Shown here: positions 2,746 to 10,917 of the stretch, in pieces
How positions within the stretch are numbered: position 1 is the stretch's first letter
Layout: every line of letters begins with the position of its first letter
Assembly (NCBI GenBank): GCA_947483545.1
Contig: CANKNP010000133.1
Location: 1-12,311, forward strand
DNA: 12,311 nucleotides
Origin: Deltaproteobacteria bacterium
Lineage (GTDB): Bacteria > Myxococcota > UBA796 > SXON01
Reading direction: 5' to 3'
The notes under the pieces: model-generated
The model's database searches: none
Seen by the model: the letters and a program-made list of their open reading frames with translations, nothing else
Told to the model about the DNA's origin: nothing
Made by a program: the position numbers and the translations under genes

Positions 2746-3528
2746 GTGAAGCTCGGCGTTTGTATCAAGCAAGTCCCCGCAACCGACACCCGCGTCGTCG
2801 TGAACCCCGGCGCCACCGGCATCGTGACCAACGACGTGAAGTGGGAGATCAACCCCTACGATGAGTATGCGCTCGAAGAGGCCGTTCGCCAGAAGCAGGC
2901 CGGTAAAGGCACCGAAGTCGTGCTCTTCACCATCGGCGGTGCCCAGACCGAGCAGCGCCTCCGGGATGCGCTCGCCCGTGGCGCGGATCGCGTCGTGCGT
3001 ATCGAAGACCCCGCGCTCGACGGCTCCGACGCCCTCGGGTACGCCCGCGCTCTGGCCGCTGCGGCAAAGGCCGAGGATGTGGGCCTCTTGTTGTGCGGTC
3101 GGCAGGCCGTGGACGGGGACAACGGCGCGGTGCCGTCGATGATCGCCGAGATCCTCGGCTGGTCGCAGGTGAGCTGGATCGACAAGCTCGGCCTCGAAGG
3201 CGGAAGCTTCACGGCCAACCGCGCGGCGGGCAGCGGAGCGAAGGAGGTCGTCACCGGCCCCCTGCCGGCGGTGTTCACCTGCGACAAGGGGCTCAACGAG
3301 CCGCGTATGGCGAAGCTCCCAGACATCATGGCCGCCAAGAAGAAGGCGATCGTCGTGAAGAACCTCGCGGCGCTCGGCCTCGACGCTGGCTCGGTCGCTC
3401 CCCTCGTCGTGGAGGACGCCATGTCTCTCCCCGCCGCGCGCCCCGCTGGCCGCAAGCTGACCGGCGATCCGGCGACGGTCGCCGCGGAGCTCGTCCGCCT
3501 GCTCCGCGAAGAAGCCAAGGTCATCTGA
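2746..3528 (+). CDS. etfB: Electron transfer flavoprotein, beta subunit
   Basis: The product has 260 residues, the usual EtfB length. The start is GTG 2746, placed 5 nt after AGGAG (2736-2740); the open frame extends upstream but that part lies inside the TetR gene. The N-terminus (MKLGVCIKQVPATDTRV) and the following K-W-E-I-N-P-Y-D-E-Y-A-L-E-E-A motif are diagnostic. The AMP-binding segment begins near G118 (GRQAVDGDNGAVPSM). A later L-P-A-V-F-T-C-D-K-G-L-N-E-P-R-M block matches the recognition-loop region that docks to partner dehydrogenases. EtfB pairs with EtfA to carry electrons from acyl-CoA and other dehydrogenases to ETF-quinone oxidoreductase. It is the second gene of the TetR-etfB-etfA operon. 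Confidence 0.97.
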   Translation: MKLGVCIKQVPATDTRVVVNPGATGIVTNDVKWEINPYDEYALEEAVRQKQAGKGTEVVLFTIGGAQTEQRLRDALARGADRVVRIEDPALDGSDALGYARALAAAAKAEDVGLLLCGRQAVDGDNGAVPSMIAEILGWSQVSWIDKLGLEGGSFTANRAAGSGAKEVVTGPLPAVFTCDKGLNEPRMAKLPDIMAAKKKAIVVKNLAALGLDAGSVAPLVVEDAMSLPAARPAGRKLTGDPATVAAELVRLLREEAKVI

Positions 3529-7537: not shown

Positions 7538-9568
7538 GTGATCCCCCGCTCCCTCCTCGTGCTCGTGGTGCTCCTCGCGGGCTGCAAGGGCTGTCAGGAC
7601 CCCGCCGAGTCCGGCGTCCCGGAGGACGACACCGCGCCCGACGTGGAGACCGACACCGGTCCGACCCTCCGCCCGCTGCGTGTCCTCGTCACCTTGGACG
7701 GGGTGCCGGCCCCCGACACCACCGTGCTGCAAGGCGGTGCGAAGGGGCGTTGGATCACCGACGAGAACGGCGAGGTGACCATCACCGTAGACCTCTCCGT
7801 CGTCGGCGACATCGAGGTGATGGGCTCCCGGGCGGATGCCCGGATCCAGGGCGAGATCGTCCGGGACGATGACTATGCCGATACTGCGGGCGCTTTCCTC
7901 GTCGAGCTGGCGCGGTTCGACACCTCGGACAACCCCGCCTACCTGTTTCAGGACCCCGGCGAGGGCGAGTGGGCAGAGTCCAACACCGAGGTCTGTCTGC
8001 ACTGCCACCGGACGTTGCACGAGGAGTGGACCCTGTCCGCCCACCGCACGGCGACACGGAACATCACCGTGCAAGACGTGTATCAGGGCACCGCCCTCGC
8101 CCTGGACGAGGCCGATTGTGCCGATGGGGTCTGGACCAGCGTGGTGGAGCCCGGCTCCGGCCAAGCGTTGGACGCCTGCGTTGTCGAGGAGGATGCGCGC
8201 GGGCTCCCGGAGTATGGCGCCTGCGCCAACTGCCACGCCCCGGGCATCGACGGCGACATCGGCGGTCGCGATCTCCTCGACGCCACCGGCATCGCTTACG
8301 ACAACGGCGTGCATTGCGATGTGTGCCACCGCGTTGAGTCGGTGGATGTGACCCAGGCGCCGGGCGTCGGCGGGGTGTTGCACCTGCTTCGGCCAACCGA
8401 GGAGCCCTTGTCCCCGGCGCTCGGCGCGTGGGCGCCGCTCACCTTCGGCCCCTACGACGATGTGCCGAACCCGCGAATGGGCGCTGTGCAGCGTACGTTT
8501 TTTGAGGACGCAGAGCTCTGCGCCGGTTGCCACGAGGCAGTGATCCCCCCCACCGGTGGGGCGATCGACCCCGCCCGCTGGCCGTCGGGGTCCCTGCCGT
8601 TTCATACGACCTTCACCGAATGGCAGGCGGGCCCGATGAACCCGTCGTCGCCGTGTCAGACGTGCCATATGCCGCCCAAGCCCGAAGCCGCCAACGCTGC
8701 CGATTTGGACCCCGAGACCGAGTCAGGCGTCGGCGTCGCCGGCGGTTGGTACCGCGACCCTGGCAGCGTCCAGTCGCACGGGTTCTTCGGGCCGCGTCAG
8801 CCGGATGCGGGCTTCTTGAGCCTCGCGGCCACGGTGTCCGTCTCGCTCGCCGAGGCATCGGGCGAGCTGGTGGCGACCGTGGTGACGAAGAATGTGGCAG
8901 CGGGCCACCGCATCCCGACCGGCGAGCCGATGCGGGCGCTGCTGTTGCAGGTCACGGCGACGTGTGAGGGCGAACCGTTGCCCGCGGTGGGCGGAGATGT
9001 CCTGCCGGCCTGGGCGGGGGCCGCAGAGGAGCGAGGCGCCGACGAGGACTGGACCCGTTGGCCCGCGGCAGAGGTCGGCGAGCAGCTCGCGGTGGTCACT
9101 GATCTCGGTGGCTGGGTGGACTACGAGGGCTACGGGGCCTTTGGCGATGGCACCTTCACCGCGGAGCAGAAGGGCCTTCCGACCGAGGGGCTGGTCGGCG
9201 TCGTGACGGTCACCGAGGTGGCCGGCGACGGAACCGTGACCACCGAGCCCGCCTTGCCGCTCGGCGACCGCGTGTATCGCCTCATCCCAACCGCCCTCGC
9301 TGGTACCCCTGGCTGGGCATTCGCTCGGGTGACCGCCAATTCCGCCGGCGAGGTGATGGTGCCCCACGCCTTCGCCACGGACATCGTCTCAGACAACCGC
9401 CTGGCGCCGCAGCAATCCTGGACCTCGACCCACCGGTTCGAGGCCTGTGCGGCCGGGGCAACGGTGACTGCCACGCTCGTCCACCGCAACTACCCCTGGG
9501 CGGAGGCGACCGCGCGGGGCTGGGCGCTGCAGGACCAGGAGATGGACAGTGAGACGGTGAACCAGTGA
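7538..9568 (+). CDS. Pentaheme c-type cytochrome lipoprotein
   Basis: The product has 676 residues from GTG 7538; the frame runs far upstream but that part lies over the glycosyltransferase gene. The N-terminus is a lipoprotein signal peptide: basic R4, hydrophobic 6-13, lipobox L-A-G-C16. An Asp/Thr/Glu-rich linker (about 20-45) and a small beta domain resembling carboxypeptidase regulatory-like folds (about 48-115) follow. Five heme c motifs are visible: CLHCH 153-157, CANCH 229-233, CDVCH 260-264, CAGCH 328-332, CQTCH 373-377. The W-T-L-S-A-H-R stretch after the first motif is typical of cytochrome c554-like multiheme proteins. The C-terminal region begins with V-A-A-G-H457-R-I-P-T-G, a signature of that group, and ends in a beta-rich domain. 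It would be anchored in the outer membrane or periplasm and move electrons. It overlaps the multicopper oxidase gene by 4 nt. Confidence 0.92.
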   Translation: MIPRSLLVLVVLLAGCKGCQDPAESGVPEDDTAPDVETDTGPTLRPLRVLVTLDGVPAPDTTVLQGGAKGRWITDENGEVTITVDLSVVGDIEVMGSRADARIQGEIVRDDDYADTAGAFLVELARFDTSDNPAYLFQDPGEGEWAESNTEVCLHCHRTLHEEWTLSAHRTATRNITVQDVYQGTALALDEADCADGVWTSVVEPGSGQALDACVVEEDARGLPEYGACANCHAPGIDGDIGGRDLLDATGIAYDNGVHCDVCHRVESVDVTQAPGVGGVLHLLRPTEEPLSPALGAWAPLTFGPYDDVPNPRMGAVQRTFFEDAELCAGCHEAVIPPTGGAIDPARWPSGSLPFHTTFTEWQAGPMNPSSPCQTCHMPPKPEAANAADLDPETESGVGVAGGWYRDPGSVQSHGFFGPRQPDAGFLSLAATVSVSLAEASGELVATVVTKNVAAGHRIPTGEPMRALLLQVTATCEGEPLPAVGGDVLPAWAGAAEERGADEDWTRWPAAEVGEQLAVVTDLGGWVDYEGYGAFGDGTFTAEQKGLPTEGLVGVVTVTEVAGDGTVTTEPALPLGDRVYRLIPTALAGTPGWAFARVTANSAGEVMVPHAFATDIVSDNRLAPQQSWTSTHRFEACAAGATVTATLVHRNYPWAEATARGWALQDQEMDSETVNQ

Positions 9569-10917
9569 TACATGTATTGATACATATGTCGCTCGGGTGC
9601 GTATCACCAGCGCGGACGTTGATACAAGGAGAGGATACCGGGGTCGCTCCGCTTCCGGACCTGCTGACCATCGCGGACGGCGAAGACCTTGATACAGCCA
9701 GCGATGCACTCCATGTATCATTCATCGCAGCACCACATATTCACGAGGTAGAAGACATACAGTACGACGGATACGCCTACAACGGCCAGACCCCCGGCCC
9801 GACCTTGCGGGCGGCAGTCGGCGACACCCTGACCGTGGATTTCACCAACGGGCTCGTTGATACAAGCACCATCCACTGGCACGGTGTATCGGCCCCTGTC
9901 GCCATGGACGGGGTTCAATGGGTCACGGACCCGGTCCCTGCAGGCGGCAGCTTCTCCTACACCATGACCCTCGACCGGGCTGGCACCTTCTGGTACCACC
10001 CACACATCGACACGAACCATCAGGTGGACCTTGGCCTCTACGGCGCCATCGTCGTGACCGACCCCGCGGAGCCGAGCTTCGACGACGACCTCCTGCTTGT
10101 CTTCGACGCCTGGGCCGAGTCTGGCGACGGCGAGGGCAGCGACGAACATGGCCTCTTCGACCCCGGGGATTTCCCGTGGACCGTCAACGGCGTCGTCGAT
10201 CCCCTCTGGGCGACGAGCACCTCCCGCTCGCTCCGGGCGCGGCTTGTGAACGTGTCCAACACCAGCTACCTCGACCTGGTCTGGCCCGGCGCCGTCCGAA
10301 TCGCGGGAGATCAAGGCGTCATCGGCATCTCCGACACGCCGGACCACCTGCTGCTCGCCCCCGGTGACCGCATGGAGATCGCCTGGGCGCCTGTCGCCGG
10401 GGAGACCGAGATCGTCACCCACGTCTACGTGCCGGCCGGCGGGCAATCCTGGCAGCCCGACGTGCGCGTGCTCACCATCACCGCCGAGGACGACGGCGCC
10501 GCCTCGCTGCCCGACCTGAGCACGGGTCAAGCCGCCCCGACGGATCCCGGCACGACGGACCTGACGTACGTGTTCGCCGGGGGCACCACCGATGGCGACG
10601 ACGGCTGGCTCATCAACGGGGAGTCCTGGCCTGACGTCACGATTCAGACCGTCCCGCTTGGTGCCACCACGATCATCGAGGTCCGAAACCTCTCTGGCAC
10701 CGAGCACCCCTTCCACCTGCACGGCAACCCCTTCGAGGTGCTCTCCCTCGACGGCGTGCCGCCGGCCTCGATGGAGCTGCAGGACACCGTCAACGTGCCG
10801 ATCCGGTCCGTCTTGCGCGTGCGGCTCACGCCCGACAACCCCGGCGACTGGATGCTGCACTGCCACCTGCTCGGCCACGAGGAGGGCGGAATGATGACGG
10901 TGCTGCGGGTGGAGTGA
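9565..10917 (+). CDS. Multicopper oxidase (laccase/CueO type), coupled to the cytochrome
   Basis: The product has 450 residues from GTG 9565, which overlaps the cytochrome stop (GTGA); ATG 9586 is an alternative. All four copper motifs are present: H104-W-H-G, H145-P-H147, H381-P-F-H384-L-H386-G, and H432-C433-H434-L-L-G-H438-E-E-G-G-M443. C433 is the type 1 Cys and M443 the probable axial ligand, so both the type 1 site and the trinuclear cluster should be intact. Length fits a three-cupredoxin enzyme that oxidises a substrate (phenols or Mn, Fe, Cu ions) and reduces O2 to water. The leader is odd: MIHVLIHMSLGC could be a short lipoprotein signal, but the lipobox is poor and no twin-Arg is seen. 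The first 110 codons use ATA, GTA, ACA and TCA, absent or rare later in the gene, because of a dense GATAC/TGATACA word cluster. Confidence 0.94.
   Translation: MIHVLIHMSLGCVSPARTLIQGEDTGVAPLPDLLTIADGEDLDTASDALHVSFIAAPHIHEVEDIQYDGYAYNGQTPGPTLRAAVGDTLTVDFTNGLVDTSTIHWHGVSAPVAMDGVQWVTDPVPAGGSFSYTMTLDRAGTFWYHPHIDTNHQVDLGLYGAIVVTDPAEPSFDDDLLLVFDAWAESGDGEGSDEHGLFDPGDFPWTVNGVVDPLWATSTSRSLRARLVNVSNTSYLDLVWPGAVRIAGDQGVIGISDTPDHLLLAPGDRMEIAWAPVAGETEIVTHVYVPAGGQSWQPDVRVLTITAEDDGAASLPDLSTGQAAPTDPGTTDLTYVFAGGTTDGDDGWLINGESWPDVTIQTVPLGATTIIEVRNLSGTEHPFHLHGNPFEVLSLDGVPPASMELQDTVNVPIRSVLRVRLTPDNPGDWMLHCHLLGHEEGGMMTVLRVE
9566..9891. repeat. Cluster of TGATACA/GATAC words in the oxidase 5' region
   Basis: Exact TGATACA lies at 9566, 9578, 9620, 9690 and 9858, and its complement TGTATCA at 9714. 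One-mismatch copies are at 9600 (CGTATCA) and 9885 (TGTATCG). Further GATAC cores are at 9634 and 9770, making ten GATAC/GTATC words in 326 bp. The first two copies form a near-tandem 12-mer (TGATACATGTAT then TGATACATATGT), with embedded palindromes ATACATGTAT (9568-9577) and ACATATGT (9582-9589). The words occur in different codon frames. Confidence 0.8.

Follow-up and report, generated by a model that had tools for sequence, protein, structure and literature searches.

SlmA of Escherichia coli is a TetR-family protein of nucleoid occlusion, and the matS sites of the MatP system are confined to the terminus region of the chromosome. Most SlmA sites of E. coli fall within coding sequence, with no hint of gene regulation by SlmA there according to the review PMC3116907, and the same source describes matS as 23 repeated palindromic sites with a role in chromosome architecture. 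In Vibrio cholerae SlmA is, by the title of PMC5519180, a direct transcriptional activator. For Noc, the ParB homologue of Bacillus subtilis, ~70 discrete palindromic sites are described round the chromosome, nucleating larger complexes (PMC4331003), and RefZ of Bacillus is presented as a TetR-family protein whose near-palindromic RefZ-binding motifs (RBMs) are conserved in chromosome position (PMC6657595). Here we analyse a stretch of 12,311 nucleotides (the window; contig CANKNP010000133.1 of assembly GCA_947483545.1, Deltaproteobacteria bacterium) that carries, at positions 9566 to 9891, a dense array of sites with the core word GATAC, written into the first 110 codons of a multicopper oxidase gene.

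The word cluster proved not to be a local oddity but part of a genome-wide set of such arrays, found in one uncultured, Myxococcota-like group of bacteria. Tens of dispersed copies per genome of one specific DNA motif are a feature of systems of the SlmA, Noc and MatP type, and this is also what was found here. The likeness to SlmA and the SlmA-binding site (SBS) lies in tens of palindromic sites per chromosome that are mainly coding (for SlmA, as described in PMC3116907; for the arrays, in five genomes), that to Noc and the Noc-binding site (NBS) in the number of discrete palindromic sites, that to MatP/matS in the repetition of palindromic sites and that to RefZ in their near-palindromic form. 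The systems also differ. The SBS is given as a 12-bp palindrome, GTGAGTACTCAC, whereas the clade has flexible multi-site arrays of half-sites, ten of them in the case of the window, and no SlmA-like binder came to light in this analysis. Unlike the case of Noc, an extra ParB-type gene is absent from genomes G038 to G053. The RBMs are described as five sites with positions conserved genus-wide, whereas the six arrays examined here are mostly unshared beyond three species. The SlmA, Noc and RefZ sites and the clade arrays are alike in number and, going by five genomes, in placement, but the clade arrays differ in their flexible multi-site form and their clumping. The uptake sequences of Neisseriaceae and Pasteurellaceae are alike in being short words of coding sequence, described as spreading without insertion of the whole sequence (PMC1939737), but the clade words are far fewer, clustered and strongly inward-facing.

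Results

Word excess in the oxidase gene

The initial annotation of the window had reported ten GATAC words, six of them within TGATACA, in 326 bp (9566 to 9891), and roughly ten GATAC elsewhere. A recount gave the same numbers: GATAC occurs 20 times in the whole window, 10 times between 9567 and 9890 and 10 times elsewhere, against 8.2 predicted by shuffles for the entire window, and TGATACA occurs eight times, six of them between 9566 and 9864, against 0.17 expected in the window. The array and its host gene are as follows.

9566..9891, no strand assigned: array of ten GATAC-core sites, six of them perfect TGATACA (word counts, codon shuffle, spacing)
9565..10917, plus strand: multicopper oxidase gene that hosts the array, of lipoprotein type, with Cu-oxidase_2 and Cu-oxidase_3 domains and a probable GTG start at 9565
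9566..9572, plus strand: site 1, TGATACA; its TGA is the stop of the cytochrome gene, and it overlaps the oxidase GTG start
9578..9584, plus strand: site 2, TGATACA; direct 12 from site 1, inward 22 to variant site 3
9600..9606, minus strand: site 3, variant TGATACG (spacing analysis)
9620..9626, plus strand: site 4, TGATACA; direct 13 to variant site 5, outward 20 to site 3
9633..9639, plus strand: site 5, variant GGATACC (spacing analysis)
9690..9696, plus strand: site 6, TGATACA; inward pair with site 7 at 24, encodes Asp-Thr
9714..9720, minus strand: site 7, TGATACA; inward partner of site 6
9769..9775, plus strand: site 8, variant GGATACG (spacing analysis)
9858..9864, plus strand: site 9, TGATACA; inward 27 to variant site 10
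9885..9891, minus strand: site 10, variant CGATACA (spacing analysis)

The GC content of third codon positions is lower in codons 1 to 110 of the oxidase than afterwards (0.65 vs 0.90), and all four of its ATA codons lie within the first 65, as the initial annotation had it. Such a composition would favour an explanation by chance, or by a 5′ codon ramp rich in AT whose spelling of GATAC is incidental. The null model was a synonymous-codon shuffle of the first 110 codons (20,000 trials) in which the protein and the codon counts, unusual codons included, were kept. GATAC then had a mean of 3.7, with ten or more in 1 of the 20,000 trials, whereas TGATACA had a mean of 0.8 and a maximum of 4, so that six or more were reached in 0 of 20,000. 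With the ramp preserved in every shuffle, and with both the large excess of word pairs over reversed controls and the retention of words between species described below, this explanation is very unlikely.

Arrays across the clade

Direct pairs were sought in 71 genomes of the class with the pattern TGATACAN{0,30}TGATACA, the reversed pattern serving as control and overlapping tandem repeats being counted. Direct pairs no more than 30 bp apart numbered 408, compared to 9 hits of the control, and 24 of the 71 genomes were positive, with the highest numbers in G033 (178), G045 (41), G041 (40), G040 (32), G046 (24) and G047 (24) and lower ones in G048 (13), G050 (11), G042 (10), G038 (8) and G039 (7). 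Inward-facing pairs numbered 293 against 0 for the control in a sample of 20 genomes, 18 of which had been picked because they bore the word; 17 were positive, and G043, G065 and G005 had none. Single words were likewise in excess over the control (161 vs 21 in G041, 160 vs 19 in G047). Among 377 genomes of the phylum, 14 had a match to the palindrome TGATACATN{2,8}ATGTATCA; 13 belong to the same class, and the match in the remaining genome, G264, is a plain AT run. At least 120 stretches of viral contigs matched the palindrome search, with one palindrome per locus among the matches listed.

The copy number of the word bears on the idea, raised in the initial annotation, of an uptake-related word, in the form of a DNA-uptake sequence spread through biased transformation. 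The genomes with 1471 and 1965 uptake sequences are of ~2 Mb, and the density of such sequences is about one per 1–2 kb. At these genome sizes, known uptake sequences are several-fold to tens-fold denser than TGATACA, which is present in 79–250 copies in G038, G040, G041, G045 to G048 and G050 and in 766 in G033 (genomes of 4.8–8.1 Mb), too few when set against the two totals above (PMC1939737). The same source describes uptake sequences as also lying in reading frames and spreading gradually without whole-sequence insertion, and the words here are likewise insertion-free; however, it gives inverted repeats as only ~10%, whereas inward pairs at preferred spacings and tight clusters are prominent here. 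We consider the uptake idea improbable. The clustering of the words and their conservation do not fit a restriction word either.

Several arrays stand out by their form. In the very GC-rich genomes that contain L140, L165, L322 and L328, Asp-Thr-Ser repeats are spelled GAT-ACA-TCT (or follow 9-bp word steps), which may represent word-driven codons or a microsatellite. L397 (G033:C133:139-194) is a contiguous 7-bp tandem of eight TGATACA copies and L402 (G033:C171:7369-7465) a 9-bp tandem of TGATACATC in 11 copies, whereas the arrays of other genomes are spaced. In L317 (G045:C1:29681-30116) and L141 (G047:C2:39828-40248) words recur every 207 bp exactly, as inward pairs in G045 and as singles in G047, a period that probably corresponds to one word per protein repeat. 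Similar stretches with two same-direction words occur at different loci (L116, L122 and L174), and in G041 the arrays of L172 and L174 each precede, by ~300 bp, a small protein of one and the same kind. Draft contigs L333 (G045:C70), L162 (G041:C23) and L161 (G041:C13) end on a word or a few bases from one, as if it broke the assembly. G065 has 101 TGATACA against 10 for the reversed control yet no direct or inward pair, so that the word may be used differently there or may overlap with a second motif.

Spacing grammar and a cause at the DNA level

The flanks of 179 words gave a half-site of the form TGATACATc(g), in which the next base is T in 66% and the one after it C in 60%. Judged from the observed spacing lists alone, head-to-tail words lie 9–13 bp apart, mostly 9–12, with further peaks at multiples of 9, and inward-facing words 11–17 (peak 15) or 21–26 bp apart, with six pairs beyond. 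Outward pairs within 40 bp were rare (7 vs 77 inward), and the inward to outward ratio was 21:1 in G047, 18:3 in G041, 24:3 in G045 and 14:4 in G048. The variants CGATACA and TGACACA were enriched close to perfect words, and a common unit is the 22-bp palindrome TGATACATnnnnnnATGTATCA. The window array follows this grammar in part: its close spacings between perfect words (direct 12, inward 24) are both inside the clade ranges, and inclusion of variant sites adds direct 13, inward 22 and inward 27, with outward neighbours at 20 and 55. It is of the same general type as the clade arrays and at the long end in number of sites.

Words within genes are found in both orientations, with sense to antisense counts of 32:43 in G047, 21:29 in G041, 51:30 in G045 and 37:36 in G048, and they occupy five reading frames, the only one missing being the sense frame in which TGA would be a stop codon. 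At gene ends the word can provide the stop codon itself; in the stretches examined it does so 10 times in G041, 5 in G045, 2 each in G038 and G040, once in G048 and never in G047 or G046. Words that occur on both strands and in five frames argue against a cause in protein or RNA, and the earlier proposal that the cause lies at the level of DNA rather than protein is borne out to that extent. Its suggestion of an RNA element fared less well. An element acting in mRNA (an attenuator, a hairpin or a site for an RNA-binding protein) could draw on the short hairpins that inward pairs might form, but folding of the window mRNA showed no excess over shuffles (z = 0.07), there was no Rfam match at the array at gathering thresholds, the words occur in both orientations and head-to-tail words are unable to pair with each other, all of which makes it extremely unlikely. 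We conclude that the array is very probably an array of binding sites on double-stranded DNA.

Conservation of words between species

Six array-bearing genes of G047 were mapped codon by codon to their orthologues, with equally AT-rich 7-mers as controls. They were the recognisable enzymes among 21 G047 genes hosting 23 arrays, and by eye from their sequences we take them to be truB, rluA, aroC, an HExxH protein gene, fabD and a haloalkane dehalogenase gene (dhlA); the choice of truB and HExxH was not blind, since shared sites had already been seen in the match lists. The comparison covered 26 of 30 gene–genome combinations, leaving out truB in G040 and G041 (39%-identical paralogues); aroC in G040 and fabD in G046 were unmatched among those listed. 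In G045, with 82.6% nucleotide identity to G047 over the six genes, 12 of 12 words were identical compared to 8 of 43 controls, and in G048, with 93.9% identity, the figures were 10 of 12 and 23 of 39. Without truB and HExxH, 8 of 8 words were kept in G045 and 6 of 8 in G048. A wider set covering all loci agrees with this result but is biased, as its loci were picked for words in both genomes.

Word-bearing and word-free orthologues aligned without gaps at the words in truB, rluA, aroC, the HExxH gene and fabD, and dhlA had one extra codon, indicating that words are gained and lost by substitution. This bears on the possibility of a mobile short palindromic element (of the REP, RPE or MITE type) inserting in genes. 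Palindromes dispersed over genes and gaps would suit such an element, but five of the six genes have no gap at their words, and the window array, aligned to the homologous and word-free stretch of G038, shows two 3-nt gaps; a mobile element is thus highly unlikely.

Where the arrays sit

Arrays of five genomes (98 in all, some of them shared by G045 and G047 and so not all independent) were assigned to genes and gaps with a home-made codon-usage gene caller that misses some starts. Genes held 71 arrays where 90.0 were expected; the counts were 11 (0.9 expected) for convergent, 14 (3.6) for tandem and 1 (1.9) for divergent gaps, and one array lay at an edge. In G033, by contrast, most arrays lie outside called genes, and convergent, tandem and divergent gaps are all above expectation; this lineage may use the motif differently. 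The placement outside promoters was thus seen in five genomes, as the conservation was for six genes and three species.

These counts bear most directly on an alternative in which a global transcription regulator uses the arrays as operators, acting inside genes or at gene ends (by roadblock or a silencing filament) and, in some genomes, from upstream. The excess in tandem gaps is in line with it, as are several G033 arrays ~27–130 bp upstream of a gene, one G048 array just upstream of mnmG (named by eye), and a helical same-face spacing that suits cooperative regulators. Against it, divergent gaps, where promoters are expected, held a single array compared to the 11 in convergent gaps, and at least one array scored as tandem (L143) sits by eye in coding sequence whose gene start was called too late. 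Host genes had no clear theme: they included a DUF455 gene, HisRS-like, histone-deacetylase-like and FabA-like genes, two of TldD/PmbA type and others for an NYN protein, a glycosyltransferase, arginase and CoaE, and 7 of 20 array-gene proteins scanned had no Pfam match. A lipoprotein regulon was weak as a candidate and was dropped: in G033 the genes lying downstream of an array scored 5 of 21, compared to 12 of 132 for genes overall, and in G041, G047 and G045 together the figure was 0 of 7. Taken together, we regard the regulator as rather unlikely.

A link of the mnmG array to oriC was also dropped; a similar-looking G045 site is in another gene, and no TTATNCACA box was present in the three loci checked.

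The initial annotation had favoured a copper-responsive multi-site array. The multi-site part of this was supported; the copper part was not. That the host gene is a multicopper oxidase, and that one of the 20 array genes scanned against Pfam has a Cu-binding_MopE motif, would be in keeping with an operator array for the oxidase gene itself. However, the array spans 110 codons and not a promoter, the same type of array occurs in many genes unrelated to copper (truB, aroC, rluA, fabD, coaE and others), and TGATACA was found within the gene in 0 of 30 related oxidase loci (L082 to L111, of which L090 and L101 lack the 5′ end because their contigs stop short of it), the single TGATACA of L082 being outside the oxidase gene. 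Copper control of the oxidase through these sites is therefore very improbable.

Host gene, relatives and neighbours

The oxidase most likely starts at GTG 9565, as deduced from its alignment with the ATG of the nearest relative, and with this start all ten words fall in coding sequence and the first TGATACA holds the stop TGA of the upstream cytochrome gene while overlapping the oxidase start. Palindromes at the start codon had been put forward as an additional signal; on the GTG 9565 start they form the opening codons of a signal peptide of lipoprotein type, in which Cys12 is invariant across 18 aligned sequences. Some words alter the protein, namely Asp-Thr at 9690, which is Asp-Pro in 11 of 17 aligned homologues, and two histidines of the signal peptide. 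The nearest relative found, in G038, is 68% identical over residues 22–450 (65% at the amino acid level in the multiple alignment) and retains the cytochrome–oxidase gene order at 72–74% nucleotide identity. A comparison with orthologues, suggested in the initial annotation, has thus turned up a relative that keeps the protein without the words, and the same turnover at distance is seen elsewhere. As arrays conserved in closer species also turn over at larger distance, the absence of words in G038 does not refute a function.

Further features of the window are:

7538..9568, plus strand: upstream lipoprotein-type cytochrome with five CxxCH motifs (by eye; Pfam cytochrome matches weak), its stop TGA part of site 1
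2761..2767, minus strand: isolated TGATACA near the etfB start
8079..8085, minus strand: isolated TGATACA inside the cytochrome gene

The sole Rfam match in the window at gathering thresholds is a tRNA at 395–467. At 681–1651 an Xre-type helix-turn-helix gene (HTH_3) is followed by an overlapping gene without Pfam match, an arrangement that looks toxin–antitoxin-like. One oxidase 50% identical to that of the window (L063) comes from a record titled as a Klebsiella pneumoniae metagenome-assembled genome; its genome (G004) shares a class with G002, a Deltaproteobacteria genome, and the record is probably mislabelled.

Discussion

On balance, we favour the view that the array in the oxidase gene is one of dozens per genome, providing sites for a putative clade-limited protein that binds double-stranded DNA sequence-specifically and whose likeliest job would be chromosomal (positioning, compaction or division control) and not the control of the host gene. 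We infer both a single cognate protein and its chromosomal role; the latter appears likeliest because divergent gaps, where promoters are expected, hold far fewer arrays than genes and gene-end gaps do, and it can probably be likened to that of SlmA, Noc or MatP. Half-sites would follow one another head-to-tail at about one turn of the helix, or face inward at about 1.5 or 2.4 turns, so that several protein subunits could dock cooperatively on one face of the DNA. Docking of this kind would explain the spacings as well as why both strands are used, why pairs point inward and why the words are conserved. Arrays would arise through base substitution over genes and be held by selection whichever gene carries them. 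More tentatively, this may be a previously undescribed system of chromosome organisation of a Myxococcota-like clade, in which a protein docking cooperatively on flexible inward TGATACATc arrays over core genes, in regional clumps, would use them as dispersed address sites.

A number of observations weigh against this view. The search for a binder was negative for the sole candidate class tested, an extra ParB/Noc-like gene: there was one ParB_N match each in G038 to G053, and two in G033. SlmA itself is titled a transcriptional activator (PMC5519180), so that one system could combine a chromosomal with a regulatory role. For the window array there is no close relative, so that the conservation data come from arrays of other genomes, and three of its five close spacings need variant sites, one of them (27) being outside the clade range, with two neighbours facing outward. 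The nearest relative, G038, is thinner in arrays (8 direct pairs, 2 inward pairs and no inward pair in the examined stretches). Conservation fails outside G045, G047 and G048, with 1 of 10 words kept in G046, 0 of 8 in G040 and 0 of 10 in G041. Some direct pairs are 9-bp tandem repeats coding Asp-Thr-Ser, although inward pairs are not of that kind, and words in G045 genes are skewed to the sense strand (51:30). Arrays within genes fall below random placement (71 vs 90.0), and in G033 only 12 of 40 are in genes (35.5 expected), with 4 of 40 in divergent gaps and some just upstream of genes. Finally, the arrays are clumped: in G045, 23 of 30 have a neighbour within 8 kb (11 of those within 300 bp, and perhaps one locus), and in G047, 14 of 27 do, at distances that all exceed 300 bp, as determined from the first 100 words listed per genome with Asp-Thr-Ser repeats included.

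In the titles and abstract openings searched, no such motif appeared for myxobacteria and uptake sequences or for Myxococcota and DNA motifs of coding sequence, and a search by the letters of the word gave, among the matches listed, only other subjects; we do not claim novelty on these grounds. If the chromosomal role is correct, these bacteria would carry a second, chromosome-level code over their core genes, one that holds synonymous and some amino-acid choices between species. The arrays would then also make it possible to test how readily sites that organise the chromosome shift from gene to gene, and the 22-bp palindrome offers a concrete probe for finding the binder.

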